NCBI GenBank assembly: GCA_017403185.1
Contig: JAFQON010000018.1
Span: 1 to 41,147, forward strand
Source: Clostridia bacterium
GTDB taxonomy: Bacteria; Bacillota; Clostridia; Oscillospirales; Acutalibacteraceae
Length of the DNA stretch: 41,147 nucleotides
Reading direction: 5' to 3'
Every line of letters begins with the position of its first letter. Within the stretch, counting starts at the first letter, position 1. Below the pieces are notes generated by a model. The model saw only the letters and a program-made list of their open reading frames with translations. It had not been told where the DNA came from and searched no databases. The position numbers were made by a program, and so were the translations under genes. Below, one piece after another: positions 8,211 through 40,251 of this stretch.

Positions 8211-8225
8211 ATTTCAAAAAAACTC

Positions 8226-8254
8226 TTGACATTTCCTCGGATATGGATTACAAT
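8226..8254 (+). promoter_or_regulatory. Promoter of the infC-rpmI-rplT operon
   Basis: TTGACA (8226-8231), a 17-bp spacer and TACAAT (8249-8254) form a near-consensus sigma-A promoter. Transcription should begin near 8261, giving a leader of about 185 nt before infC. Confidence 0.85.
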
Positions 8255-8260
8255 AGCTTG

Positions 8261-8445
8261 CACAATAAAGCAGAGCAGGTTTTGCTCTCACCTTCCGGGG
8301 AAGTCCTGAGTCGGTCAATAATTTCTTTTCAATCGGGCATATTCTGCCCGTGTCAAAGAGTGTTGATTATGCGAGGCCAGGGTTCCTGCCCTCGCTTTTT
8401 TATTTGACCTTCCTGAAAGGGAAGTATTTTTGGAGGTGCTTTAAC
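8261..8445 (+). promoter_or_regulatory. L20-type leader RNA of the infC operon, with attenuator terminator
   Basis: The leader holds several hairpins, for example CGGGCA (8334-8339) with TGCCCG (8345-8350), and ends in an intrinsic terminator. That terminator pairs GCGAGG (8371-8376) with CCTCGC (8390-8395), then CAGG with CCTG across a C-C mismatch, followed by TTTTTT. In low-GC Gram-positive bacteria, excess L20 binds the infC leader and promotes premature termination. The gene order and terminator fit that mechanism here; L20 binding itself is inferred. Confidence 0.7.
8371..8401 (+). terminator. Attenuator terminator in the infC leader
   Basis: A 10-bp stem (GCGAGG/CCTCGC and CAGG/CCTG with one C-C mismatch) with a GTT loop is followed directly by a run of six T residues, 45 bp before the infC start codon. 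Confidence 0.8.
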
Positions 8446-8967
8446 ATCAGCAGCAAGCAAGAACAGCAGATCAATGAGGAAATCCGTGATAAGGAAATAA
8501 GAGTTGTTTCCGATGACGGTGAGCAGCTCGGCATCATGTCCGCAGCAGAAGCTCTCAAAATTGCCGAAAGCAGAAATCTTGACCTTGTTAAGATTGCTCC
8601 CATGGCAAAGCCTCCCGTTTGCAAGATAATGGATTACGGCAAGTTCCGATTTGAAAAGGCAAAGAAAGAGAAGGAAGCAAAGAAGAATCAGAAGACCATC
8701 GAAATCAAAGAGATCAGGCTTTCTCTCAACATCGATACCCACGATTTTGACACAAAAATCAACCACGCCCGCAAGTTCATTGCGTCAGGCAACAAGGTTA
8801 AGGTTTCCATCCGCTTCAGAGGCCGTGAAATGGCTCATCCCGAGCTCGGTTTAACAATTATGAAGCGTTGTGCGGAGGCCATGGCTGATTGTGCGAGTAT
8901 CGAGAAGCCCGCAAAGCTCGAGGGCAGACAGATGCTGATGTTCCTGGCTCCGAAGAGCTCAAAGTAA
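8446..8967 (+). CDS. infC: Translation initiation factor IF-3
   Basis: IF-3 binds the 30S subunit, keeps it apart from 50S and checks start-codon pairing. The 173-residue product has the N-domain opening QQINEEIRDKEIRVVSDDGEQLG and DLVKIAPMAKPPVCKIMDYGKFRFE, a Lys-rich linker, and the C-domain KVSIRFRGREMAHPELG. The start is the rare codon ATC at 8446, placed correctly after GGAGGTG; IF-3 genes are known for AUU/AUC/AUA starts, which IF-3 itself discriminates against (autoregulation). The frame is also open upstream to a GTG at 8350, but that runs through the attenuator and is rejected. It is the first gene of the infC-rpmI-rplT operon. Confidence 0.95.
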   Translation: MSSKQEQQINEEIRDKEIRVVSDDGEQLGIMSAAEALKIAESRNLDLVKIAPMAKPPVCKIMDYGKFRFEKAKKEKEAKKNQKTIEIKEIRLSLNIDTHDFDTKINHARKFIASGNKVKVSIRFRGREMAHPELGLTIMKRCAEAMADCASIEKPAKLEGRQMLMFLAPKSSK

Positions 8968-9000
8968 GAAAAGGTTTTTATTATTAAGGAGGAAATACAA

Positions 9001-9198
9001 ATGCCTAAAATCAAGACTCACAGTGGCGCAAAGAAGCGCTTCAAGCTTTCAAAGAACGGCAAGCCCATGCGTGCCCATGCTTACAAGTCACACATTCTCA
9101 ATAAGAAGAGCACAAAGCGCAAGAGAAATCTTCGCAAGACAACTGTTGCTGATGTTACAAACTGCAAGCAGATCAAGCGTCTTGTTCCCTATAAATAA
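9001..9198 (+). CDS. rpmI: 50S ribosomal protein L35
   Basis: This is a basic protein of 65 residues, the usual L35 length, beginning [15 protein letters not shown] and containing [16 protein letters not shown]. It is part of the large ribosomal subunit. AGGAGG lies 9 bp before the ATG. It sits between infC and rplT, the conserved order. Confidence 0.98.
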
Positions 9199-9248
9199 TA
9201 GGAACTTTGTAAACCACTAACACACAAGATTAACGGAGGATAATAAAA

Positions 9249-9605
9249 ATGGCACGTATTAAAGGCGCTATAATGACTCGCAAGAGAAGAAATAAGGTAC
9301 TCAAGCTCGCTAAGGGCTACTACGGCTCAAAGCATTCACTTTTCAAGACAGCCAAGCAGGCTGTTATGAAGAGCGGCAACTACGCATACATCGGCAGAAA
9401 GCAGAAGAAGAGAGATTTCCGCCGCCTTTGGATCACAAGAATTTCAGCTGCTTGCCAGGCAAACGGCATGAACTATTCAACATTCATCAACGGTCTTAAG
9501 AAGGCAGAGATCAGCCTCAACAGAAAGATGCTTGCTGAAATCGCTGTTTCAGACCCCGCAGCATTCACTGCTCTCACAGAGAAGGCAAAGGCTGCTCTCA
9601 ACTAA
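9249..9605 (+). CDS. rplT: 50S ribosomal protein L20
   Basis: The 118-residue basic protein shows L20 signatures: the N-terminal [20 protein letters not shown], then [21 protein letters not shown] and [21 protein letters not shown]20 is needed for early 50S assembly and in related bacteria represses its own operon through the infC leader. The Shine-Dalgarno GGAGGA precedes the ATG. A strong terminator follows 15 bp after the stop. Confidence 0.98.
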
Positions 9606-9620
9606 TCATAAAGATAATTT

Positions 9621-9657
9621 ATCAGAGATGTAACATATAGTTGCATCTCTGATTTTC
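9621..9657 (+). terminator. Terminator of the infC-rpmI-rplT operon
   Basis: Fourteen bases at 9621-9634 pair with 9640-9653 (one G-T wobble) around a 5-nt loop, followed by TTTT and a T-rich stretch. Confidence 0.85.
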
Positions 9658-9684
9658 TCGTTTTATGTACTTTTATAATTTGTA

Positions 9685-9713
9685 TTGCATTTTTCAAAAA
9701 ATGTATATATAAT
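9685..9713 (+). promoter_or_regulatory. Promoter of the SpoU methyltransferase-dprA operon
   Basis: TTGCAT (9685-9690), a 17-bp spacer and TATAAT (9708-9713). The expected leader is about 60 nt. Confidence 0.75.
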
Positions 9714-9782
9714 AAGGTATCAAATATTTAAACAATATATTTGTTGTTTTTTGCAGAACAATGACGAATCGGCGGTAATGGT

Positions 9783-10565
9783 ATGGAAAAGATAACCTCA
9801 AGAGCTAACGAAAAAATCAAATATGCCGCTCGCCTTGGAGAAAGCGCTTCGCTCAGAAAAGAAACGGGCGAATTCCTTCTCGAGGGCGCACGCCTTTGCT
9901 TTGATGCCGCTCAGACGGGCATTGAAATCAGGCAGGCTTTTTTTACCTCAAAGGCTTTGTGGAAATATGAGGAGTATGTTACGGATATTATCGCCAAAAG
10001 CAGCGTATGCTGTGAAATAGGTGCGGAGGTTTCTCAAAAGCTCTCGGGCACCGAAAGTTCGCAGGGCGTTTTCTGCATCTGCTCAATGAAGCCGCAGCCC
10101 GAATCGGAGCTGCTCAACACAAGCGGCAAGTACATTGCCCTTGAAAATCTTCAGGACCCTTCGAATCTCGGCGCAATCTGCAGGAGTGCCGAGGCAATCG
10201 GTCTTGACGGGTTGATTGTCAGCGGCGGCTGTGATATCTATAATCCGAAGGCTCTCAGGGCGGCGATGGGCTCGTCACTGAGAATGAATATTCTCTCGGT
10301 TGATAATCTTGACGAGATTATCTCTGCGGCAAACGAAAAAGGAATGCTTACCCTTGCATCCGTTCCCCGCAACACGGCAGAGGATATCCGCACCGTTTCA
10401 ATGAGCGGCGGCGTTATCTGCTGCGTTGGTAACGAGGGCTCGGGGCTTTCACGGCAGGTTATTGAAAAATGCAAAAAGCAGGTTGTTATACCCATGAACG
10501 GCAGGGCGGAATCCTTCAATGCCTCGGCAGCGGCGGCGATACTTGCATGGGAGCTGAAAAGATGA
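9783..10565 (+). CDS. TrmH/SpoU family RNA 2'-O-methyltransferase
   Basis: This second SPOUT methyltransferase of the window has 260 residues. The N-terminal domain (1-105) starts EKITSRANEKIKYAARL, typical of the group that includes B. subtilis YsgA. The catalytic domain has LENLQDPSNLGAICRSAEAIG, CCVGNEGSGLSRQV and IPMNGRAESFNASAAAAIL, matching SpoU motifs 1-3. It shares only these motifs with the RlmB at 4629, so the target is probably another rRNA or tRNA nucleotide. The ATG at 9783 has only a weak ribosome site (GGCGGTAATGG). It overlaps dprA by 4 bp (ATGA), implying translational coupling. Confidence 0.9.
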   Translation: MEKITSRANEKIKYAARLGESASLRKETGEFLLEGARLCFDAAQTGIEIRQAFFTSKALWKYEEYVTDIIAKSSVCCEIGAEVSQKLSGTESSQGVFCICSMKPQPESELLNTSGKYIALENLQDPSNLGAICRSAEAIGLDGLIVSGGCDIYNPKALRAAMGSSLRMNILSVDNLDEIISAANEKGMLTLASVPRNTAEDIRTVSMSGGVICCVGNEGSGLSRQVIEKCKKQVVIPMNGRAESFNASAAAAILAWELKR

Positions 10566-23828: not shown

Positions 23829-23868
23829 TTAGACCAAATGCAAAATTCCTTCGTCTTTAGGGTGTAAG
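23829..23868 (+). promoter_or_regulatory. ECF-type promoter element, copy 1
   Basis: TTAGACCAAA (23829-23838), 13 nt, TCGTCTT (23851-23857), TAG, GGTGTAAG. Read as an ECF-sigma promoter it is TAGACC, 16 bp, CGTCTT; CGTC is the core -10 of many ECF sigma factors. It lies 35 bp before the first of two small membrane-protein genes. A GGGGTC/GACCCC hairpin (23868-23885) follows. Two more copies are at 24723 and 29983. Confidence 0.7.
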
Positions 23869-24722: not shown

Positions 24723-24762
24723 TTAGACCAAACCAAAAAATCAATCGTCTTTAGGGTGTAAG
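24723..24762 (+). promoter_or_regulatory. ECF-type promoter element, copy 2
   Basis: TTAGACCAAA (24723-24732), 13 nt, TCGTCTT (24745-24751), TAG, GGTGTAAG. Spacing between TAGACC and CGTCTT is 16 bp, as in copies 1 and 3. It lies 46 bp before the secreted-protein gene at 24809. Confidence 0.7.
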
Positions 24763-28497: not shown

Positions 28498-29493
28498 TTA
28501 TTTCGTTTTGAGCTCAAAGACACACTGAGTTTTGAACCTGCTTTTGAGCGGGCATTCACTGCAGGTGAGCTCAACCTCAATTGAGTTGAGAAGATTTTCA
28601 ACAACGCCCGAGGAGTAGCCGCGGATGAAGGCGCAAATCTTCCTCTTCTTTTTATGGTCAACAATGAAGGGTTCGTTTATTCTTATTTTGCCCGTCAGGC
28701 TGTCATTTTCTTCATCAATAAAGATTTCGGATGAAAAAAGTCCCCAGCCCACGGCTGAATCGAACTCGCACCATTTGTTGATTTTGTTCTTTATATCCTC
28801 AAAGGAATAGCCCGTATCCCACTGATTGTTGATTTTTTCGGAAAAGTTTTTTCCGCTTGCGTAGCCGCTGTCAAAGAATATGCTTTCGGCGGCTTCGCTT
28901 CCCGCAATTTCTTCAACTCTTTCAAAAATCCCGCCCATCATGTTGACAATGGTGTCTGTTCTGAAGCTCACATTTCTCTGGTGGTCCTCAGGGTTAACCA
29001 TAATGCCTCTGTCGGGGTAATAATCAAAAACGGTTGTTTTTGACAAATCCACGGGCTCTGCTTTCTCAGGCACCGCCTCAACAACGGGCGCTTCACTGGG
29101 AAGATATTTTGATGCCGTGTCAAGAATTTTCTGAAAATAAGTCTGCGGAGGGTCAGGGTAGGCGATAATCCAGTGCTTTCTGCCGAGATAATATCTGTAA
29201 TCGTCGCTCAGCTCAAAGTCCTCAACAAATACGGGCAGAATGGTTTTCTTTTTTGCGAAAACAACATCAACCTCGTTGAGCACGTGCTCAGATTCGTTGA
29301 TTGACTTTGACGCAATCAGCATAACTGCGGCGCAGTTGTAGATTGCATCCATGAGAGCCGAGGCATAGGGCTTTCCGCCGTCAATATCTCTGGGGGCAAT
29401 GAAGCACTGAACGCCGTTATCCTCAAGATACTCAACTAAATTATATGCAAATTCTCTGTCTTTGCTCGAATAGCTGATAAATATTTTTTTCAT
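28498..29493 (-). CDS. TIR domain protein with C-terminal V4R-like ligand-binding domain
   Basis: The N-terminal third (about 1-135) is a bacterial TIR domain: KKIFISYSSKDREFAYNLV, CFIAPRDI, and INESEHVLNEVD, where E74 sits at the position of the catalytic glutamate of NAD-cleaving TIRs. After a linker, residues about 160-331 look like a V4R (4-vinyl reductase) domain, a small-molecule-binding fold: SGYASGKNF, a GWG stretch, then CAFIRGYSSGVVENLL and the Cys-rich end CSECPLKSRFKTQCVFEL. I am sure of the TIR part and fairly sure of V4R. No membrane segment. It is the middle gene of a minus-strand operon. NADase or signalling function is inferred. Confidence 0.8.
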   Translation of the reverse strand: MKKIFISYSSKDREFAYNLVEYLEDNGVQCFIAPRDIDGGKPYASALMDAIYNCAAVMLIASKSINESEHVLNEVDVVFAKKKTILPVFVEDFELSDDYRYYLGRKHWIIAYPDPPQTYFQKILDTASKYLPSEAPVVEAVPEKAEPVDLSKTTVFDYYPDRGIMVNPEDHQRNVSFRTDTIVNMMGGIFERVEEIAGSEAAESIFFDSGYASGKNFSEKINNQWDTGYSFEDIKNKINKWCEFDSAVGWGLFSSEIFIDEENDSLTGKIRINEPFIVDHKKKRKICAFIRGYSSGVVENLLNSIEVELTCSECPLKSRFKTQCVFELKTK

Positions 29494-29982: not shown

Positions 29983-30022
29983 TTAGACCAAACCCCGATT
30001 TGCTTCGTCTTATAGGTGTAAG
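29983..30022 (+). promoter_or_regulatory. ECF-type promoter element, copy 3
   Basis: TTAGACCAAA (29983-29992), 13 nt, TCGTCTT (30005-30011), ATA, GGTGTAAG. The TAGACC-CGTCTT spacing is again 16 bp. It lies 33 bp before a small gene that is followed by the sialidase-like gene. Confidence 0.7.
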
Positions 30023-30054: not shown

Positions 30055-30315
30055 ATGAATGAAAATGTGAAAAAAACCAGAGTGAATCTTGACGGGCTTC
30101 ATTCGCTCGAAATTTCGGTTAATGAAGAAAACAAAACCGTGATTGCCGAGCTTGTTGTGCCCGATGAAAACCCCACCTTTATCTACGCCGAAAAATTCGA
30201 TGCTCCTTGCAACTACCTTAAGGCAGCGATAAAAAAAGGGGTTGTCTATCTTGACGCAAACAAAAACGGGCGTCTGCCGGGCAGCAGAAATGACCCGGGC
30301 ATTCTTAAAGGATAA
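30055..30315 (+). CDS. Small hypothetical protein upstream of the sialidase-like gene
   Basis: The 86-residue soluble protein is not one I recognise. It contains LHSLEISVNEENKTVIAELVV, an aromatic-free beta-like stretch, and a C-terminal DANKNGRLPGSRNDPG segment. There is no signal peptide or membrane segment. CGGAGGG precedes the ATG. It is the first gene after ECF-type element 3 and 21 bp before the sialidase-like gene. Its small size and position would suit a regulator or chaperone of the locus, but nothing in the sequence shows that. Confidence 0.7.
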   Translation: MNENVKKTRVNLDGLHSLEISVNEENKTVIAELVVPDENPTFIYAEKFDAPCNYLKAAIKKGVVYLDANKNGRLPGSRNDPGILKG

Positions 30316-30336: not shown

Positions 30337-31491
30337 ATGAAAAATTTTATTAAAAAGTCAATTGCAACGGTTTTATGCTGCTGCACCCTTGCAGGCACCG
30401 CCTGCCCCGCTTACGCATTTGAAAACAACTCGGCACAACCCGATTTTTCTGCAAGCATCGTAAGCTTTTTTGAGGATTTCAGAGAGAAGCTTTTCAGCCT
30501 TCTGGGGATAACATCAAATGAAACAGAAGGCATGGATATCAAAATTGACCGCGGTGAGGTTTTTGAGGCAAAAGAATATTTCAACAGTGCTCACGCATCA
30601 ACACTTGTAAAAATGTCAAACGGCGATATACTGTCGGCATGGTTTGCAGGCAGCGGCGAGGGCAACAGTGATGTGAGAATATGGTATTCGGTTTATAACG
30701 GCAGCGAGTGGAGTGAGCCGAAGCAGCTTGCGTCAGAGGATACCGTGGCTCATTGGAATCCCGTGCTTCAGGACATGGGCGATTTCGTAAGGCTTTATTA
30801 TAAGGTCGGCAAGAATACCGAAAGCTGGGTTACAAAGTATTCCGATACCTATGATTACGGTGCAACATGGACTCAGCCCAAGGAGCTCGTTGAGGGTGAC
30901 ACAAGCGGCGGCAGAGGTCCCGTAAAAAACAAATGCCTTGTCACATCGGGCGGTGTTATGATTGCCCCTGCTTCAACCGAGCAGGGCGAATGGAAGGCGT
31001 TTTTTGATATTTCAACAGACGGCGGCGAAACATGGCAAAAAACAGATTATATTTCGGCAAAGGACAGCAGAGGCAAAACGGTTGCAATGATTCAGCCCAC
31101 TCTCTGGGAGGATGCAGACGGCAATATTCATGCGATGTTCAGAACAAGAGCGGGCAAAATTTACAGAAGCGACTCCTTTGACGGCGGCTGCACATGGAGC
31201 GAGGCGTACGCCACACAGCTCCCCAACAACAGCAGCGGAATTGACTGCGTTATGAGCGATAACGGATGGCTCTGGCTTGCATATAATCCCATCGGCGTTG
31301 AAGGAATACGCAACAAGCTTGTTCTCTCCGTTTCAAAGGATAACGGCGAAACATGGGAAGAGGTTATGACTGTTGAAAACAGATTTTTCGGCGAATACTC
31401 ATACCCGTCAATAATTGCAGACGGTAACGAGCTTTATATGACTTATACCTACACAAGAACGAAAATCAACTATTTGTTTATTGAATTTTGA
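30337..31491 (+). CDS. Secreted BNR-repeat (sialidase-like) protein
   Basis: The 384-residue protein has a signal peptide (MKNFIKKSIATVLCCCTLAG..., cleavage likely after AYA) and a six-bladed-propeller-like body with at least four Asp-box motifs: YDYGATW, STDGGETW, SFDGGCTW and SKDNGETW. The first blade, NSAHASTLVKMSNGDILSAWFAG, matches predicted neuraminidases (BNR_2 type). A catalytic Arg triad and Tyr/Glu pair cannot be confirmed by eye, so activity on sialic acid is probable, not shown. No cell-wall anchor. It follows ECF-type element 3 and would supply sialic acid to a ManNAc route such as nanE-ROK at 458-2090. Confidence 0.8.
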   Translation: MKNFIKKSIATVLCCCTLAGTACPAYAFENNSAQPDFSASIVSFFEDFREKLFSLLGITSNETEGMDIKIDRGEVFEAKEYFNSAHASTLVKMSNGDILSAWFAGSGEGNSDVRIWYSVYNGSEWSEPKQLASEDTVAHWNPVLQDMGDFVRLYYKVGKNTESWVTKYSDTYDYGATWTQPKELVEGDTSGGRGPVKNKCLVTSGGVMIAPASTEQGEWKAFFDISTDGGETWQKTDYISAKDSRGKTVAMIQPTLWEDADGNIHAMFRTRAGKIYRSDSFDGGCTWSEAYATQLPNNSSGIDCVMSDNGWLWLAYNPIGVEGIRNKLVLSVSKDNGETWEEVMTVENRFFGEYSYPSIIADGNELYMTYTYTRTKINYLFIEF

Positions 31492-31571: not shown

Positions 31572-33104
31572 ATGGAAACGGGATATGAAAGAATAGCCGA
31601 GCTTGTCGTGAAGCTTCAGGGCGGCGATAACAGTGCGTTCAACGAGCTTTACAAGCTGACAAGCGGCAGGGCATACTTTGTTGCGCTCGAAATCACAAAA
31701 AACGAGCAGGATGCAGAGGATGTCCTTCAGGAAAGCTACATAAAAATGCTTGAAAAAATCAATACGCTTGATAAGCCTGAGAGCTTCGTGAGCTGGTTTC
31801 ACCATATGGTTGCCAATAAGAGCAAGGATTCTCTTAAGAAAAAGAAACCTTCGCTTTTTGAAGCGGGAGAGGAAGAAGCGTTTGAGGTTATTCCCGATGA
31901 GGACACCTCGTTCAATCCCGAGGAAAATCTTAATCAGGATGAGCTGCACTCCGCTGTTATGGAGGTTATCGGTGAGCTGACCGAGGAAAAGCGTGCCTGC
32001 GTGATGATGATGTATTTTGAGGAGATGAGTGTTAATGAAATTTCAGAAACACTCGAAATCCCCGTCAGCACCGTTAAAAACAGGCTTTTCACCGCAAGAA
32101 AGGATCTGAAGGCGAAATTTGAGAAGAGGGGAATCACCTCTCTTTACAGCACGGCACCTGTCGGCGTTGTTATCTGGGCTCTTGCCAGAGCGTCGGAATC
32201 CGTTTCGTCAACCTTTGCGGAGAGTGCAAATTCAGCCCGTGTGCTGTCAGGTATCGCAATATCGGGCACTGCAGCGGCGGCGACCACTGCAGCAGGTGCA
32301 GGCACGGCGGCTACAACCGCTGCAGCAACCACAGCCGCAACAACCGCAGCCTCGACCGCAGCCACAACGGCGGCATCAACGGGTGCGGGCGTTGCCGTGA
32401 AAGCCTTTGCGCTCACCACTGCTCAGAAGGTTATTGCAGGTCTTGCGGCAGTGGGAATTATCGGCGGCACTGCTGCAGGAGTTACAACGGTTGTTAAAAA
32501 CAGAGAAAAGGAGCCTGAAACCACGGGCGTAATTCAGGAGGAGGTTACAACCGCCCCCGCTTTTGAGGAGGAAACCGTGCTGCCTGCAGTTGTTCCCGTC
32601 AGCGAAACCTCAACCTCTGTTACAACCGCTCCCGATGAGAGCACAACAAAGGCTTCGTCAACAACAACAAAGAAAAATACTACCACGACAAAGGCGACGA
32701 CAACAAAGAAAACCACAACAACCGCAACAACCAAAAAGACTACCACCACAACAAAAGCAACTACAACCAAAAAGACCACTACCACAACTCAAAAGGAAAC
32801 AACCACCAAAAAAGTAACCACAACCACCGAGCCCACAACCGAGGAGCCCACAACAACAAGGCCGACCACCACAACCACTACCGAGGCGGCAAAAGCAACG
32901 GTAACATTCACGGTGCTTGAGCTTGACAATACCGTTGCCGACTCCTTCAGTGTGGAGGTAGAGCCCGGCACTCTGCTTAATGATGCTTATATTGCGGGGC
33001 TTGTTGAGGCGAGAGGTCACTTGCCCTACGGCGGAATCGACGGCCCCGGCGACTCCCTCTATGCGGAGTCGGGTCAGACCTACGAAATGGTTGCTTATTT
33101 ATAA
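31572..33104 (+). CDS. ECF-type sigma factor fused to a membrane segment, Thr/Lys-rich stalk and C-terminal domain
   Basis: The first 178 residues form an ECF sigma factor: region 2 (about 15-85, SAFNELYKLT, NEQDAEDVLQESYIKML, SFVSWFHHMVANKSKD) and region 4 (about 125-175, EEMSVNEISETLEIPVSTVKNRLFTARKDL). Unusually, 330 more residues follow. Residues about 181-285 are hydrophobic to Ala/Thr-rich, then a membrane segment AGLAAVGIIGGTAAGV (about 289-304). A stalk of mostly Thr and Lys (about 345-440) follows, then a terminal beta-rich domain (about 440-510, ATVTFTVLELDN...YEMVAYL). It looks like a sigma factor tied to the membrane with an external sensor. It is 15 bp ahead of the first giant surface gene. 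Orientation is inferred; the basic KNREK after the segment weakly argues against it. Confidence 0.82.
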   Translation: METGYERIAELVVKLQGGDNSAFNELYKLTSGRAYFVALEITKNEQDAEDVLQESYIKMLEKINTLDKPESFVSWFHHMVANKSKDSLKKKKPSLFEAGEEEAFEVIPDEDTSFNPEENLNQDELHSAVMEVIGELTEEKRACVMMMYFEEMSVNEISETLEIPVSTVKNRLFTARKDLKAKFEKRGITSLYSTAPVGVVIWALARASESVSSTFAESANSARVLSGIAISGTAAAATTAAGAGTAATTAAATTAATTAASTAATTAASTGAGVAVKAFALTTAQKVIAGLAAVGIIGGTAAGVTTVVKNREKEPETTGVIQEEVTTAPAFEEETVLPAVVPVSETSTSVTTAPDESTTKASSTTTKKNTTTTKATTTKKTTTTATTKKTTTTTKATTTKKTTTTTQKETTTKKVTTTTEPTTEEPTTTRPTTTTTTEAAKATVTFTVLELDNTVADSFSVEVEPGTLLNDAYIAGLVEARGHLPYGGIDGPGDSLYAESGQTYEMVAYL

Positions 33105-33119: not shown

Positions 33120-36100
33120 GTGAAACGATATCTCAAAAAACTGACTGCTTTTTTACTGTCGGCATTAATGATTTTCGGTGCTGTCTCGGCTGTAAGGATA
33201 GAGGCAAACGCAGCAGTGAAGTATAAACAGAAAGAAATAATCAAATTCGGTTCATATCCGCAGAGTGAGGTCACAGACACGGCTTTGCTCAGCAAGCTCA
33301 ATGATTTAGAGCTTGATTGGGTATCATACGGATACTATACGGGCAATGGCTCTCTCGGCGGCATGGTTCAGAGCGATTATATGAAATATGCCGATGTTAC
33401 ATACGGCGGCAGCAAATACAGAGCCGTAACCTTCACACAATACAGACCCACATATGTAAAATATGCTGCGGATGAAACAGGTGAACACAGCCGTCAGGAT
33501 GATAACGGATACAATATAAATAATGTATACTGGTTCAAATACGAGCCTTTGGAGTGGAAGATAATCGACCCTGTAAACGGGCTTGTAATGTGTCAAAGCA
33601 TTATTGACTCGCAGCCGATAAGCGCCACCGTTTACAGCGGATATTACAACAATATAGCTGAGGGCTTCAGCAAGCGTTATATCTGTGACTATAAATCAAG
33701 TTCGCTCAGAGCGTGGCTTAACGGCGATTTTTATAATCTTGCCTTTACCGATGCTGAGCGTGCGGAAATTCAGCTCACTCACCTTGACAGCACGGCAAGC
33801 AATGTGTACTACGGTCACGCAAGTGATGATTATATTTATTTTCTCACCACTGATGATGTTGTGAATTCTGACCTGACCTTCAGCGATAACAGGTATTTTT
33901 CTTCTTCAACAAGGCAGGCGTCAGGCACGGATTATGCGAAGAGTCAGGGTCTTTATGTGACGAACGCTCCGGGAGAAGACGATGACGGAATGTCAAGATG
34001 GTGGCTCCGCAATCCTTACGGCAGAATGAACGATTCCGTGCATATTGTTACGGCTGACGGCTACAGCCCCACGGGCACCGATGCAGCGAATACCGATGTG
34101 GGTGTAAGGCCTGTTATGAGGCTCGGAATGGTCATAGATGCCAACAAAAAATACAAGGTTGAATATAAAATCGAGGGATATGTTCCCGAATACTACACCA
34201 AAGAGCTTGAACCGGAAACGGTTCAGGTTGGCGCTGATGTGAAACCGGTGGATTTCGGCAGCCCGAGCGGTGATTATACCTTTGACGGCTGGTATTACAA
34301 CGGCGAAAAGGTAACAACCCTTGAAATGCCTGCTCACGATATTCAGCTTACCGGCAGATGGGTCACCGATGAGCCTGCGCTGGGCATTGAAACCCGTTTT
34401 TATAAGTATGACGAAACAGCTCAGGATTGGGTTGAAACAAACAGGGTTGAGCCCGGTGAAGAAGTGAAGCTCAGACTGTTTGTTGATACAACATATGCTG
34501 CAGGCTACGGCGATGTTCTTGTGTTTTATGACAGCACATTCTTTGAAGATGATTATGTTACCGATGATTGGCATGAACTCACAGTGAATACCGACCCTGA
34601 AAGCTCAGCGGCGGTGAATGAAGTATGGGGTGATTTCCAAAAGCTTGATCGATCTGATGATTTGATTTTTGAGCAGCTCAGAAAAGACGAACTTTACAAG
34701 GAGAATTATTACGACTACAATGCGTTTAAGATCTTTTTCGAGCTCGGCACGGGAGAATGTGCAAAGCTGAGCGGCGATCAGTGGCTTGCGGAATTTGACC
34801 TGAGGGTTTCGCCGGATGTTATAGGCTACGCTCAGGCACCTGTTCCCTCGAGCACAGTCAAATATTCTTATGATGACTCGGGCTACACAGATGTTACTAT
34901 AGGCGTTGAGGGGGAATCCGTATATGACTCGGTTACCCTTTATAAATCAGATGTATGGAACAGCTCAGTCAGAAACGGCTATGTTACCACAAGCACCACC
35001 GTTACATGGTACGGTAACGGCGGCATCTTTGAGGGCGTTTACGACGAACACGGCTATGAAGCATATGAGGTGACGAAGGTGTTGCCAAGCGGCGGATATC
35101 TATATCCCGATTATGACCTCGGCACATGGGTTTACAGAGAAGGCTACAATCTTATGGGCTGGTATGATGAATACGGCTATGACTATGACCGTGAGCCGTT
35201 TGACCCGATCCCCCTTGACAGAGCGGAGATTTTTTTGGGTGCCGAGTGGGAGCCCATGACCGTAACCGTTGAATTCCTTGACAGCTATTACGGAGAGCTT
35301 ATCTATTCTCAGGATTTTTTATATGATGAAGAGATAGTGTTCCCGGATATGCCTGAGTTGGAAGGCTTCACCTTCGGGGGCTGGCTGGATGATAACGGTT
35401 ATCCTGTTGAAGAATACGAACGGGTGAATCTGAGAAATACAAGATATCATGCGGCATATTATTATAATGAGCATGATGTTGTGTATATGTCAGACGGCGT
35501 TGAGCTTGAAAGGTATACCGTTTTATACGGCGATAAAGTGCCGGAGCCTTCGTACCCGCCCACAAAGAAGGGTCACACCTTCGCAGGCTGGAAGAGTGTT
35601 ACTTATATAGAGGGTGTTGACGGAATCCCCGAAACCATGCCCGACAGCGAGCTGATATTTGAGGCGGTTTGGGAGGCAAACAGGCACACGGTAACATTTG
35701 TCGATATCAACAATTATGACAGCTTATGTGCCGTTTCATACGAATATGGCGAGCTTGTTGAAATGCCCGACCCCGACTATACTGTCAAGACGGGATATAC
35801 TTTTGACGGCTGGTATTTTGAAGACGGCACACCCGTTGCATTCCCGTTTGAAATGCCCGATAACGATGTGATTATCTGTGCAGACTGGGTTGAAAATGTA
35901 TATGAAATCACTTTTGATTCCTTGGGTGGCTCGCCTGTTGAGCCGATAAAGGCAGATTATCTGTCAGAAGTTGATGCTCCCGCAGAGCCCGAAAAAGAAG
36001 GCTTCCGCTTTGTCGGTTGGTCATATGTTCACCCTGACAGCGGTCATGAAACAGAAATGGTTCAGTTCCCGTTTTGGGTTCCTGCTGACTGTATAACTCT

Positions 36101-37424
36101 TTATGCAGTTTGGGAGGCAAACGAACACACGGTAACCTTTGATACACAAGGCGGCAGAGAGATTGAGCCTGTCAGCGCAAATTACGGCGAGCTTGTTGAA
36201 ATGCCTGACTACCCTGTTAAGACGGGATATGCGTTTGCAGGCTGGAGCTACGAAGACGGCACGCCCGTTGAATTCCCGTTTGAAATGCCCGACAGCGATG
36301 TGGTTATCCGTGCGGAGTGGATTGTTTATCAGTTCGAAATCAATTTCGAATCTCAGGGAGGTTCGTTTGTTGAGCCGATAAAGGCAGATTATTTGGCAGA
36401 AGTTGATGCTCCCGCACAGCCCGAAAAAGAAGGCTTCCGCTTTGTCGGCTGGTCATATCTGCCCGATGACTATTATCAATCGGCAATGGCTGAATTCCCG
36501 ATTGTAATGCCCGTTAACGGCACAACCCTTTACGCCGTATGGGAGCCTGAAAAATACACAGTAACCTACAACATCGGCGAAGAAAGTCTCGTGTATTCCG
36601 TTGAGTTTGACTCGGAGATTCCTCAGCCGGATATGTCGGATTTTGACGGCAAGGAGCTTATTTGCTGGCTTGATTCCGACGGCAACGAGGTGCAGATACC
36701 CTTCCTTATGCCTGCGCATGAATTGGAGTTCACCGCAAGGTTCAGATATGTGAGCGTTTCCGATGAGTTCAATGTTACCGCAACATATGACGATGATTGC
36801 TTTGCCGAGGATGCGAAGCTGAGCGTCAATGCAATAAGCGGTGAAAGCAAGCTCGGCAGCATTTATATGCTCGGCGGCAGCTATTACAAGCAGGTGGGCT
36901 TTTTCAACATAAAAATGCTCAACGGTAAATCTGAGGCTGTTCAGCCTCAGAACGGCAAAAAAGTAACCGTCAGCTTCCCGATTCCTGCAGGCTGCAGTGA
37001 GAAAAATGAGTTTATAATCACTCATTGGCTTTCCGGCGGCGGCAGAGAGAGGTTCACAACCGGCAGCAATGCCCGAATAGAGAGCGGCTTTATCTTTATT
37101 GAAATCGGCGAGTTCAGCGAATTCTCAATCCATGTCAGGTCATCCGCAAAGGTAACAAAAGCACCTTCAAAGACGGCATATAATTATAAGGAAGAGCTTG
37201 ACCTGAGCGGAATAGAGCTCACCGTGACAATGACCGACGGCACAACCCGTAAAATCACGGACACCTCAAAAATAAATGTCAGCGGTTATGATTCCTCAAA
37301 AATCGGCGAGCAGACCGTAACCGTTGATTATAACGGCGAGAAGGCTGCGTTCACAGTCACCGTAAGCTATGCTTGGTGGCAGTGGATAATCAGAATTCTC
37401 TTCCTCGGATTCCTCTGGTATTAA
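33120..37424 (+). CDS. Giant secreted InlB/Flg_new-repeat surface protein
   Basis: The 1434-residue protein starts with GTG at 33120 after GGGAGGAG and has a signal peptide (MKRYLKKLTAFLLSALMIFG..., cleavage near ANA). Next comes a DUF6273-like domain (about 40-340: SSLRAWLNGDFYN, WWLRNPYG, DVGVRPVMRL). A cohesin-like stretch lies around 415-600. About nine Flg_new/InlB B-type repeats (VTFDTQGG...GYAFAGW...AVW) fill most of 340-1220. The C-terminal module (about 1207-1434) ends in a bacterial Ig-like domain and the tail AWWQWIIRILFLGFLWY. It has no LPXTG. It is cotranscribed with the ECF sigma gene and is likely a surface adhesin or sensor; binding partner unknown. Confidence 0.85.
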   Translation: MKRYLKKLTAFLLSALMIFGAVSAVRIEANAAVKYKQKEIIKFGSYPQSEVTDTALLSKLNDLELDWVSYGYYTGNGSLGGMVQSDYMKYADVTYGGSKYRAVTFTQYRPTYVKYAADETGEHSRQDDNGYNINNVYWFKYEPLEWKIIDPVNGLVMCQSIIDSQPISATVYSGYYNNIAEGFSKRYICDYKSSSLRAWLNGDFYNLAFTDAERAEIQLTHLDSTASNVYYGHASDDYIYFLTTDDVVNSDLTFSDNRYFSSSTRQASGTDYAKSQGLYVTNAPGEDDDGMSRWWLRNPYGRMNDSVHIVTADGYSPTGTDAANTDVGVRPVMRLGMVIDANKKYKVEYKIEGYVPEYYTKELEPETVQVGADVKPVDFGSPSGDYTFDGWYYNGEKVTTLEMPAHDIQLTGRWVTDEPALGIETRFYKYDETAQDWVETNRVEPGEEVKLRLFVDTTYAAGYGDVLVFYDSTFFEDDYVTDDWHELTVNTDPESSAAVNEVWGDFQKLDRSDDLIFEQLRKDELYKENYYDYNAFKIFFELGTGECAKLSGDQWLAEFDLRVSPDVIGYAQAPVPSSTVKYSYDDSGYTDVTIGVEGESVYDSVTLYKSDVWNSSVRNGYVTTSTTVTWYGNGGIFEGVYDEHGYEAYEVTKVLPSGGYLYPDYDLGTWVYREGYNLMGWYDEYGYDYDREPFDPIPLDRAEIFLGAEWEPMTVTVEFLDSYYGELIYSQDFLYDEEIVFPDMPELEGFTFGGWLDDNGYPVEEYERVNLRNTRYHAAYYYNEHDVVYMSDGVELERYTVLYGDKVPEPSYPPTKKGHTFAGWKSVTYIEGVDGIPETMPDSELIFEAVWEANRHTVTFVDINNYDSLCAVSYEYGELVEMPDPDYTVKTGYTFDGWYFEDGTPVAFPFEMPDNDVIICADWVENVYEITFDSLGGSPVEPIKADYLSEVDAPAEPEKEGFRFVGWSYVHPDSGHETEMVQFPFWVPADCITLYAVWEANEHTVTFDTQGGREIEPVSANYGELVEMPDYPVKTGYAFAGWSYEDGTPVEFPFEMPDSDVVIRAEWIVYQFEINFESQGGSFVEPIKADYLAEVDAPAQPEKEGFRFVGWSYLPDDYYQSAMAEFPIVMPVNGTTLYAVWEPEKYTVTYNIGEESLVYSVEFDSEIPQPDMSDFDGKELICWLDSDGNEVQIPFLMPAHELEFTARFRYVSVSDEFNVTATYDDDCFAEDAKLSVNAISGESKLGSIYMLGGSYYKQVGFFNIKMLNGKSEAVQPQNGKKVTVSFPIPAGCSEKNEFIITHWLSGGGRERFTTGSNARIESGFIFIEIGEFSEFSIHVRSSAKVTKAPSKTAYNYKEELDLSGIELTVTMTDGTTRKITDTSKINVSGYDSSKIGEQTVTVDYNGEKAAFTVTVSYAWWQWIIRILFLGFLWY
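35667..36540 (+). repeat. Tandem duplication of a two-repeat unit in the giant surface gene
   Basis: Two adjacent units of 441 and 429 bp, beginning at GTTTGGGAGGCAAAC (35667) and (36108), each encode an A-type repeat (GELVEMPD...KTGY.F.GW, EDGTPV.FPFEMPD) then a B-type repeat (EPIKADYL.EVDAPA.PEKEG, FRFVGWSY). The A-B-A-B order shows a recent duplication of a two-repeat block. Confidence 0.85.
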
Positions 37425-37479: not shown

Positions 37480-40251
37480 ATGAAAACAAAGTCAAAAAGA
37501 ATTATTTCAATCTTTCTTACAGCCGTAATGCTTATGAGCATTGCGGCAATGGGCATTTCGGCGTTTGCGGCAACGGAATACACGGAAGGCTCTTATCGCT
37601 ACACGGTTTCGGGCAGCGAAGCAACAATCACAAAGGCAACGAATGTTTCGGGTGATATAACTCTTCCTGCAGCCCTCGGCGGCTACCCCGTAACAGCGAT
37701 AGCAGACGGAGTTTTTGCTCACAACACTGCGATCACGCAAGCTGTTATCCCCGACAGCGTAAAAACCATCGGCAACAGTGCATTTGAGGGCTGCACCGCT
37801 CTTGCAGGCATAGAGATTACCGCAAGCGTTACGAACATCGGCTCAGGTGTGTTCAGAGGCTGCACATCCCTTGAAAAAATAGCGGTTGAAGAGGGCAATC
37901 CCTCATACACCGCCGACGAAACAGGTGTTCTTTTCACTAAAGATAAGACAAAAATCGTTGGCTACCCTGCAGGCAACAAGAGAACGGAATATGTTATACC
38001 TGATTATGTTACCGAAATTGAAAGATATTCATTTGCGGGCAGCGTGAATCTTGAAGAGGTTATCTGGAATAATCCTGCTATCAAGCTTGGTCTTGGTGCA
38101 TTTTCGGATTGCAGGGGGCTTCGCACCGTAACAATTCCCGAAGGCACGACTCATCTGAGCGACTGGCTTTTCAATGCCTGCTTCAGCCTTTCGGAAATAA
38201 ACTTCCCCGAAAGCCTTGAATCAATAGCTTCGGGCACCTTCCATTGGTGCACAGGACTTGAATATGTTGAGCTTCCCTCGGGGCTTAAGGAAATCGGCAA
38301 CAACGCATTCAGGGAGTGTGAAAGGCTTAAGGGAATCAAGCTTCCCGACGGCCTTGAGGTTATCAGACCCAACGCATTTCATCAGTGCTTCAGCCTGGAA
38401 AGCATTGAAATCCCCGAAAGCGTTACATACATCGGAGATACGGCGTTTTACCAGTGCTATTCACTTAAAGAAATTACATTCCCCAAGGGAACAACCGCAA
38501 TTTACGGCTCAACTCTGCGCTATTGTGTTGACCTTGAGAATGTATCGATTCCCGACAGCGTCACAGCCATTAACGATGATTCATTCATGGATTGCAGAAG
38601 CCTTGAAACCGTCACAATTCCTGAAAATGTAAAAGCCGTAACAGGCAAGGCGTTTGTTAACTGCATTGCCTTTGAAAGTGTATCCGTTGATGCGGATAAT
38701 CCGTATTTCACCGCAGACAGCAGCGGAGTTCTTTTCAATAACAACAAAACAAAGCTTGTTTATTATCCTGCCAACAAGCAGCAGAAGGTTTATACCGTGC
38801 CCGATACCGTAACCTCAATCGGCACTTATGCTTTTGGCAGCGCTCAGACTCTTGCAAGCGTTATTATTCCCGACAGCGTTACGGCGATTGAAGCCGCAGC
38901 TTTTTACGGCAATAATATACGTGATATTTATTTCGAAGGCACTCAGGAGCAGTGGAATGAATTTGCTGCTGCAACAGATACGGCAAATCCCGTTACCGCA
39001 ACGGTTCATTTCAATCATAAATCAACTGACCATGTGCATGAATATGCACAGTCAATCACAGCTGAGCCCACCTGCTCGGCAAACGGAACAAAGTCGTATT
39101 CCTGCTCATGCAGTGAGAGTATACAGACAAGCTTGCACTACAGCACTGCAAAAATGCTGTGTTCAGATGCAGAGCGTGAATGGAAGGTTGTTGAGCCTGC
39201 GGATTGCTCGGCGGCGGGCACACGCAATCTCTGCTGCAGCAAGTGCGGCTATGCCCTTTTGGTCAGAGATACGGAAAAGCCTGCACACAGCCTCGGCATA
39301 ACTGTTTCGGACTCGGCAATTGACTTTGAATGCACAGACTGCGGATACTCATACACCGAGGAAATCCCCGACGGCGCAGGCTATGTTCATTATAAGGGCG
39401 GCGAAAAAGAAAGAGTTCATATTTATAATGCGGGCGAAAAAATTGTTGTTCCTCCTGTACCCGAAAAAGAGGGTCTGAGCTTCTTCGGTTGGAAGGATGA
39501 GAGCGGAAATACCGTTGAGCTCGGCACAATGCCTGCGGGCAACCTTGTTCTTACCGCCGCTTTCGGCAAAATTCTTGAATCGGAGAGCTTCGATGTTACC
39601 GCAACCTTTGACGAGGACTGCTTCAATGAGGATGTCAGCCTGAGTGTAAAGGAAGTTGAAGGCGAAAGCAAGCTCGGCAGCATTTATATGCTCGGCAAGG
39701 AGAGCTATAAGCAGGTCGGATTCTTCAACATTAAAATGGTTAATGAAAAGTCCGAGACCGTTCAGCCCAACAGCGGCAAAACGGTAACTGTTAAATTCCC
39801 GATTCCCGAGGGATACGGCGAAGGCGACAGATTCATAATCACCCACTGGTTCTCAAACGGCGACAGAGAACGCTTCTCAACCGATGCGGGCGGCGGCGCA
39901 ATTATCGAAAACGGATATATAATCATTAGTGTCGGTCAATTCAGCGAGTTTTCAATCCATGTCAAAACATCGGCAAAGGTGTCAAAGCTTCCTTCAAAGA
40001 CGGCGTACAACTACAAAGAAGGGCTGAATCTCAGCGGAATTGAATTGACCGTAACAAACTCAGACGGCACAACCGAAAAGGTTACGGACACATCAAAAAT
40101 GACGGTCAGCGGTTATGATTCCTCAAAAGTCGGCGAACAGACGGTGTTTGTTGAGTATGACGGCTGCCGTGCCGAGTTCACCGTCACCGTAAGCTATGCG
40201 TGGTGGCAGTGGATAATCCGAATTCTTCTTCTCGGTTTCCTCTGGTATTAA
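37480..40251 (+). CDS. BspA-like leucine-rich-repeat surface protein
   Basis: The 923-residue protein has a signal peptide (cleavage after ISAFA, near residue 29). From about 60 to 520 it is a chain of LRR_5/BspA-type repeats (VTAIADGVFAHNTAITQAVI, IPDSVKTIGNSAFEGCTALAG and so on). Two Cys-containing segments follow (SCSCSESI; CCSKCGYAL; CTDCGY), then one Flg_new-like repeat (GLSFFGW) and the same C-terminal module (about 695-923) as the preceding gene, ending AWWQWIIRILLLGFLWY. BspA-like proteins often act as adhesins in gut and oral bacteria. AAGGAG lies before the ATG. It is probably cotranscribed with the upstream genes, 55 bp away. No LPXTG. Confidence 0.87.
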   Translation: MKTKSKRIISIFLTAVMLMSIAAMGISAFAATEYTEGSYRYTVSGSEATITKATNVSGDITLPAALGGYPVTAIADGVFAHNTAITQAVIPDSVKTIGNSAFEGCTALAGIEITASVTNIGSGVFRGCTSLEKIAVEEGNPSYTADETGVLFTKDKTKIVGYPAGNKRTEYVIPDYVTEIERYSFAGSVNLEEVIWNNPAIKLGLGAFSDCRGLRTVTIPEGTTHLSDWLFNACFSLSEINFPESLESIASGTFHWCTGLEYVELPSGLKEIGNNAFRECERLKGIKLPDGLEVIRPNAFHQCFSLESIEIPESVTYIGDTAFYQCYSLKEITFPKGTTAIYGSTLRYCVDLENVSIPDSVTAINDDSFMDCRSLETVTIPENVKAVTGKAFVNCIAFESVSVDADNPYFTADSSGVLFNNNKTKLVYYPANKQQKVYTVPDTVTSIGTYAFGSAQTLASVIIPDSVTAIEAAAFYGNNIRDIYFEGTQEQWNEFAAATDTANPVTATVHFNHKSTDHVHEYAQSITAEPTCSANGTKSYSCSCSESIQTSLHYSTAKMLCSDAEREWKVVEPADCSAAGTRNLCCSKCGYALLVRDTEKPAHSLGITVSDSAIDFECTDCGYSYTEEIPDGAGYVHYKGGEKERVHIYNAGEKIVVPPVPEKEGLSFFGWKDESGNTVELGTMPAGNLVLTAAFGKILESESFDVTATFDEDCFNEDVSLSVKEVEGESKLGSIYMLGKESYKQVGFFNIKMVNEKSETVQPNSGKTVTVKFPIPEGYGEGDRFIITHWFSNGDRERFSTDAGGGAIIENGYIIISVGQFSEFSIHVKTSAKVSKLPSKTAYNYKEGLNLSGIELTVTNSDGTTEKVTDTSKMTVSGYDSSKVGEQTVFVEYDGCRAEFTVTVSYAWWQWIIRILLLGFLWY

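Follow-up and report, generated by a model that had tools for sequence, protein, structure and literature searches.

How might a sigma factor be controlled when a membrane helix, a stalk and a folded tip are built into the same chain? The question is raised by a single ATG-start open reading frame of 510 amino acids (31572..33104, forward strand) in the window, by which we mean the whole stretch of 41,147 nucleotides that was analysed. We take up in turn the protein, its relatives, its operon and promoters, and the manner in which the sigma part might reach the DNA.

Architecture and orientation of the fused protein

An earlier note on this DNA had claimed that a sigma factor with regions 2 and 4 continues in frame into a hydrophobic section, a membrane segment, a stalk and a beta-rich end. 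This is confirmed; all of these lie in one frame of 510 residues. Sigma region 2 occupies residues 27–92 (31650..31847; Pfam PF04542 Sigma70_r2, 8e-11) and region 4, with the recognition helix STVKNRL, residues 128–179 (31953..32108; PF08281 Sigma70_r4_2, 3e-13). Region 3 is absent, as in ECF (group 4) sigma factors. Past residue 185 a Pfam scan of the protein returned no match at E ≤ 0.1. There follows a hydrophobic linker with two predicted helices (residues 196–217 and 219–236; 32157..32279), its blocks at pLDDT 66–81 and lower at the end, and then a Gly/Ala/Thr-rich membrane helix at about residues 288–308 (32433..32495). The 19-residue hydropathy peak of this helix falls at residues 279–297 and the best 21-residue window on the GES scale at about 287–308.

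Directly past the membrane helix stands the motif EEVTTAP (32538..32558), which recurs as EE(V/Y/T)(T/I)T(A/S)x in 14 of the 15 fusions of groups I–III (see below) and is a possible region for a first cleavage. The stalk (residues 341–440; 32592..32891) is of low complexity, with 53 Thr and 14 Lys per 100 residues and a pLDDT below 50 up to residue 437. The chain ends in a tip, residues 442–510 (32895..33101), that belongs to no Pfam family. Structure prediction, which the earlier note had recommended, is confident here: the tip is predicted to be beta-grasp-like, with the order beta-beta-alpha-beta-beta, and its ten-residue blocks have a pLDDT of 88–92 save for one block at 77.

On which side of the membrane does the tip lie? 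The 15 residues before the helix carry a net charge of +2 and the 15 after it –2 to +1 in all 22 window-clade fusions, that of the window included. The tips of homologues are of the LRR_5, CAP, Big_2 Ig-like and WG types. LRR, CAP, Ig-like and WG domains are usually found outside cells. From the charge bias, the tip types and the secreted proteins encoded in the operons we infer that the sigma part lies inside and the tip outside. Hydropathy cannot tell one membrane helix from three, and either number fits a tip on the outside; two helices would place it inside.

That second arrangement, in which linker and membrane helix pair as a hairpin of two helices, leaving stalk and tip to sense something within the cell, draws on the hydrophobic character of the linker (residues about 190–245), which passes the threshold for a helix in several relatives, and on the lysine-rich stalk. 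Since it runs against the charge bias, the tip types and the secreted partners alike, we regard it as highly improbable. The claim that sensor, anchor and sigma factor are one chain gains support from the charge bias, from the outside-type tips of the homologues and from the recurrence of the fusion in 41 cases.

A family of fused sigma factors

Could the fusion be an accident of assembly? The source genome is a draft of 2.40 Mb in 50 contigs, 80% complete, whose nearest relatives are Clostridia MAGs from the hindgut of goat, sheep, roe deer and water buffalo. It contains six such fusions, and the sample of its genus contains 41 (the window included), each a single open frame with a sigma part and a later hydrophobic helix. 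A fusion was counted when at least one 19-residue window with a hydropathy of 1.5 or more followed the sigma part in the same open frame. The 41 remain from 48 sigma-like rows at 42 loci after seven were dropped as lacking a membrane helix, unfused or remote (L077, L088, L013, L014 and the second rows of L011, L099 and L105); among them L011 and L099 are near-identical, and the start of L074 is cut by a contig end. Loci repeating contigs already counted under other labels were not recounted, and L111 was added to the counts of promoter sites and charge. With six fusions in one genome and 41 in the genus, an origin by assembly error or by a chance frame is ruled out. The possibility that the stalk is a separate gene joined by misassembly, which the earlier note had raised against itself, is thereby refuted, and the same fusion is indeed found in relatives, where the note had suggested looking.

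How widely does the family extend? At E ≤ 1e-20 there are matches in 16 of the 40 genomes sampled, the source genome among them; in G036 the sole match is L088, an unfused sigma protein. Across the order, with E ≤ 1e-25 as the threshold, matches occur in at least 18 of 295 genomes (own included) and at least 17 of 149 genera, these counts being lower bounds because at most seven candidates were scored in most genomes. Thirteen of the 18 order-wide loci could be parsed, and in all 13 a membrane helix follows the sigma part.

The tips differ. Within the genus they are beta-grasp-like, LRR_5, CAP or a domain of some 450 residues to which no Pfam family matches; homologues elsewhere in the order have Big_2 Ig-like or WG-repeat tips. 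In a tree of 59 sigma parts the tip types cluster, eight changes being needed (minimum 4, shuffled mean 30), with tip labels assigned by a rough script, the tipless L077 labelled as beta and no unfused outgroup in the tree. The window clade comprises 23 rows with a support of 100/99: the 15 beta-grasp fusions of groups I–III, seven fusions of a 740-residue type, and L077.

Several relatives stand apart from these counts or show unusual arrangements. L077:4889-5515 (G011:C19) encodes a sigma protein of 208 residues within the fused clade without a membrane part; it may have lost its tail, or may be a naturally free sigma factor. L013:4912-7179 (G000:C33) codes for a distant protein that combines sigma region 4, a strong membrane helix at residue 407, WG repeats and an SH3 domain; it is another tethered sigma-like design, outside the fusion counts. 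An uncultured Ruminococcus carries a tandem pair of fused sigma genes (L123:6508-7941 and 7968-9887). Three genomes have a further, more distant fused sigma gene arranged head-to-head with the group III operon (L010, L092 and L094, on G000:C47, G020:C2 and G002:C69).

Operon, promoters and probable regulons

In the window the fused gene stands among genes of one strand. At 29985..30008 lies AGACCAA-N14-CGT followed by CTTATAGGTG, at the head of the operon. ECF promoters have an AAC-like –35 element and CGT at –10, and the match at 29985, AGACCAA-N14-CGTC, is of this type. Behind it come a gene for a protein of 86 residues (30055..30315), a gene for a BNR/sialidase-like repeat protein with a signal-peptide-like start (30337..31491), the fused sigma gene, and two genes for secreted products. 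Canonical ECF sigma factors have a gene for a membrane anti-sigma factor beside them; the neighbours here are the genes just listed, among whose products the BNR protein has an N-terminus weakly like DUF4179 (E 0.0032; 18.3 bits against a cut-off of 30.1). The promoter lies 1.6 kb ahead of the sigma gene, with the BNR gene and a gap of 80 bp between, a distance that speaks against simply assuming a common transcript. The first product, a large InlB-repeat/Big_3 protein of 1434 residues ending in WWQWIIRILFLGFLWY (33120..37424), starts 15 bp past the sigma gene and is likely to be co-transcribed with it. The second (37480..40251) has LRR_5 and Big_3 domains and a tail almost identical to that of the first. 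On the opposite strand, not far from the operon, is a gene for a TIR-domain protein (28498-29493; Pfam TIR_2), which could serve in defence or signalling.

Is this order of genes general? A gene with a signal-peptide-like start comes next after 30 of the 41 fusions, against 30 of 177 control ORFs; the control began from 205 mechanical ORFs rather than gene calls, 28 at locus edges being left out, and the rule for signal peptides was a crude hydropathy test. Of the 11 fusions that depart from this order, six belong to the 740-residue type (which has seven members), three are LRR types, and the remaining two are L101 and L108, where the script may have misplaced the start. A papain-family protease gene comes next after the CAP-tipped fusions L075 and L107. 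Three members of an LRR subgroup (L079, L080 and L076) have a divergent gene whose product starts like a signal peptide. Upstream of LRR-type fusions (L079, L080, L081, L012 and L082) lies an inverted GTGAAC...GTCT or GTATCT motif; its GTGAAC...GTCT form precedes L079, L080 and L081, points at the divergent gene in L079 and L080, and was not found at L076, L083 or L128 of the related LRR subgroup.

The secreted products share a hydrophobic C-terminal tail, WWQWIIRILLLGFLWY in the window (37374-37421 and 40201-40248) and GFFxRIIAFFKxLFG-like in the others. The C-terminal 80 residues of the first product have ten matches in the genome, six of which reach the very end. Five of these six lie within fused-sigma operons, four directly past the sigma gene and one as the second product in the window; the sixth (C26) has neither fusion nor motif nearby. 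The tail is possibly an anchoring or sorting signal and is not LPXTG-like.

What role might be played by the 86-residue protein at the head of the operon? It belongs to no known family, shows no signal peptide, and is predicted to consist of four strands and one helix (pLDDT 72). In the 40 genomes it has 14 copies, every one upstream of a group I–III fusion and one for each of the 14 fusions of these groups, and many residues are invariant across six copies. Because the linkage to groups I–III is strict, two proteins may be required for signalling, the small one possibly as a gatekeeper. Might it instead act as a soluble anti-sigma factor and be the main brake, so that the tether chiefly determines location? 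The strict linkage and the invariant residues would suit such a role. The same small protein was not found, in the 40 genomes, alongside the LRR, CAP and 740-residue fusion types, which share the architecture, and fold comparison gave no convincing match and no anti-sigma factor among the best 50 rows. We therefore think the small protein rather unlikely to be the main brake, and continue with the tether as the principal restraint.

Do the fused sigma factors act on promoters of their own? An exact site lies within 2.2 kb upstream of 21 of the 22 window-clade fusions; the exception, L100, shows a deviant one by eye, and the scan returned additional hits that look like chance (another in the window, one for L012). 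The site stands ahead of the small gene or, in the 740-residue type, ahead of the fusion itself. It reads AGACCAA-N14-CGT (TGT in one case) in groups I, II and 740, and TGAACCG-N15-CGTCTAA-like in group III. The recognition helix follows this division: STVKNRL accompanies AGACCAA (15 fusions, two of them near-identical) and GTVKTRL accompanies TGAACCG (six), a correspondence that amounts to essentially one evolutionary split.

Further sites exist beyond the operons. In the window 0.06 copies of the short pattern are expected and three occur: at 29985, at 23831..23854 (forward strand) ahead of gene 23903, which encodes a membrane-protein-like product of 124 residues, and at 24725..24748 (forward strand) ahead of gene 24809, whose product of 418 residues has a signal-peptide-like start. 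Genome-wide the short pattern has 14 sites against one in the control; the extended motif, with up to three mismatches, likewise has 14 against none in the reversed control, and 11 sites are common to the two lists. Nine of the 14 gene products encoded downstream of the extended motif start with a hydrophobic segment. The set includes a secreted papain-family protease (C15), an ABC transporter (C12), and a membrane protein (C4) with HESGH and a weak M50 match (E 0.0012, below the cut-off). The hydrophobic start is lacking in another ABC ATPase of the set (C25) and in two products identified by eye, a zinc-ribbon protein (C2) and an acetyltransferase-like one (C46, at three mismatches); at C13:42976 there is no clear gene.

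The sister motif of group III, whose promoter is at G000:C47:68075, has three sites in the genome, at the operon head, at the gene for the secreted product and at one further gene, whose product has a signal-peptide-like start and also matches part of the tail query. Among the 40 genomes this motif occurs in exactly five, those with a group III fusion, and the control is zero in all 40. The short window pattern is abundant (5 to 14 sites, control 0 to 2) only in G000, G006, G008, G011 and G017, all of which have window-clade fusions. Four genomes without clade fusions show a small excess over the control (G007, 2 vs 1; G022, 1 vs 0; G024, 2 vs 0; G031, 1 vs 0); their fetched sites, a set that leaves out one in G007, are without the CGTCTTATA continuation. 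Several fetched sites show no ORF, the gene start lying beyond the range of the script.

It could be that the motif is read by another, unfused ECF sigma factor, the fusion operon being merely one of its targets. Apart from its six fusions the genome gives 20 other hits to sigma region 4, and G008 (88% complete) has four further window-type sites although a group I fusion was not found there, so that another sigma factor could read the window motif. Against such a reader stand the confinement of the sister motif to the five genomes with the sister fusion, the restriction of large window-pattern counts to five genomes that all have clade fusions, and the tracking of the –35 element by the recognition helix; we hold it to be distinctly improbable. 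From this correspondence we infer which sigma factor reads which motif, and because of the promoter evidence the sigma part looks functional. We conclude that the fused sigma factors are very probably active, control their own expression and each command a private regulon.

Probable release of the sigma part and known systems

If the sigma factor is tethered and yet works, how does it reach its promoters? The reading that we favour, and consider probable on balance, is that a working ECF sigma factor is tethered by its own C-terminal half, with the tip held outside on a stalk, and is released by cleavage to fire its own operon and a private regulon. While tethered it would be kept off its promoters. 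An event at the surface, sensed by the tip, would set off a stepwise cleavage, the first cut falling outside, perhaps near the conserved EEVTTAP, and a site-2 protease making the second within the membrane helix. Once free, though perhaps subject to gating by the small partner, the sigma part would transcribe its own operon and a private set of genes, mostly for secreted or membrane proteins, from AGACCAA-N14-CGTCTTATA promoters, so that the output of the regulon would be more sensor and more surface protein. The sequences support the fusion and its recurrence, the operon, the sets of promoters and the paralog-specific promoters; proteolytic release of the sigma part appears likely. The earlier note had proposed a search for a site-2-type protease, and a strong M50 gene of this type is present (C10:38994, 198.9 bits), though such genes are near-universal and equally present in all 14 control genomes.

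Need the sigma part be released at all? ToxR and CadC are membrane regulators that act while in the membrane. In the same manner the tip might reshape or cluster, and the tethered sigma factor bind RNA polymerase at nearby promoters with no cleavage. Some targets do lie near the sigma gene (its own operon and the copies at 23831 and 24725), the sister paralog has a site directly ahead of its own product gene, and no site-1 protease was identified. But 13 of the 14 extended-motif sites are on contigs other than that of the window, the helix is Gly/Ala/Thr-rich, as would be expected of a site-2 substrate, and IutY, the characterised fused case, is cut by Prc and RseP. Action from the membrane thus seems unlikely, and release by cleavage remains the reading that we carry forward.

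Does any known system combine these features? Sigma factors of the ECF243/IutY type have a FecR-type periplasmic anti-sigma domain and a TonB-dependent receptor as partner. Neither was seen here, the Pfam scan past residue 185 being empty at E ≤ 0.1 and no receptor being present among the scanned neighbouring genes. In IutY of Pseudomonas putida (ECF243) sigma and anti-sigma factor form one chain, and release by Prc and RseP has been demonstrated. Like the window protein, IutY unites an ECF sigma part, a membrane segment and an extracytoplasmic part in one polypeptide; what lies outside in IutY is a periplasmic anti-sigma domain responding to aerobactin via a surface receptor. The window family differs in its Thr/Lys stalk, exchangeable tips, many paralogs and linked small protein.

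A second parallel is ECF52, exemplified by SCO4117 of Streptomyces coelicolor, for which autoregulation has been suggested and proteolytic release proposed. The window protein shares its layout of sigma part, membrane helix, low-complexity stalk and C-terminal domain, which in ECF52 is a binding domain. ECF52 proteins have a zinc-finger domain, a carbohydrate-binding module and a Pro rather than a Thr/Lys stalk, and are described as exclusive to Actinobacteria. HxxxCxxC is absent from all 59 sequences scanned here, there is no Pfam zinc finger, and the window protein has a single Cys, C143. ECF48 and ECF53 are expected, according to a review, to work like IutY and ECF52.

For many paralogs with promoters of their own, the closest analogue is SigI/RsgI of Clostridium thermocellum, with paralogous sets, different outer sensors, separate promoters and secreted targets, and with steps of autocleavage, RseP and ClpXP. 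SigI and RsgI are separate proteins and SigI is without region 4, whereas the window protein is fused and has region 4. The nearest classified groups are possibly ECF262 (Ruminococcus albus) and ECF288 (Blautia producta), clostridial ECF groups with extensions that stand under ‘Others’ in a review table, where ECF288 is compared with the Cys-rich CorE type. The principle of a fused, tethered sigma factor is already known from IutY and ECF52. What seems new here is a clostridial version that is multiplied and modular, with a Thr/Lys stalk, exchangeable tips, a linked small protein and no zinc-finger anti-sigma domain.

Separate promoter codes apparently exist within one genome. A wider scheme, which we offer tentatively and regard as possible though doubtful, is that the paralogous tethered sigma factors form parallel, non-overlapping channels, each with its own tip, promoter code and surface proteins, with gating by the small protein as a novel type of partner and with feedback on the channels through proteases of the regulon (papain-type and M50-like). 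If these readings are true, several parallel one-chain lines connect the surface of a gut clostridium with its promoters, every line having a DNA code and surface proteins of its own, and one cell would read several surface cues in parallel through transcription channels that do not overlap. Tethered sigma factors would then be a modular signalling class in clostridia, pairs of sigma factor and promoter without cross-talk would be gained, and the switching-on of surface proteins in uncultured gut bacteria would become directly testable.
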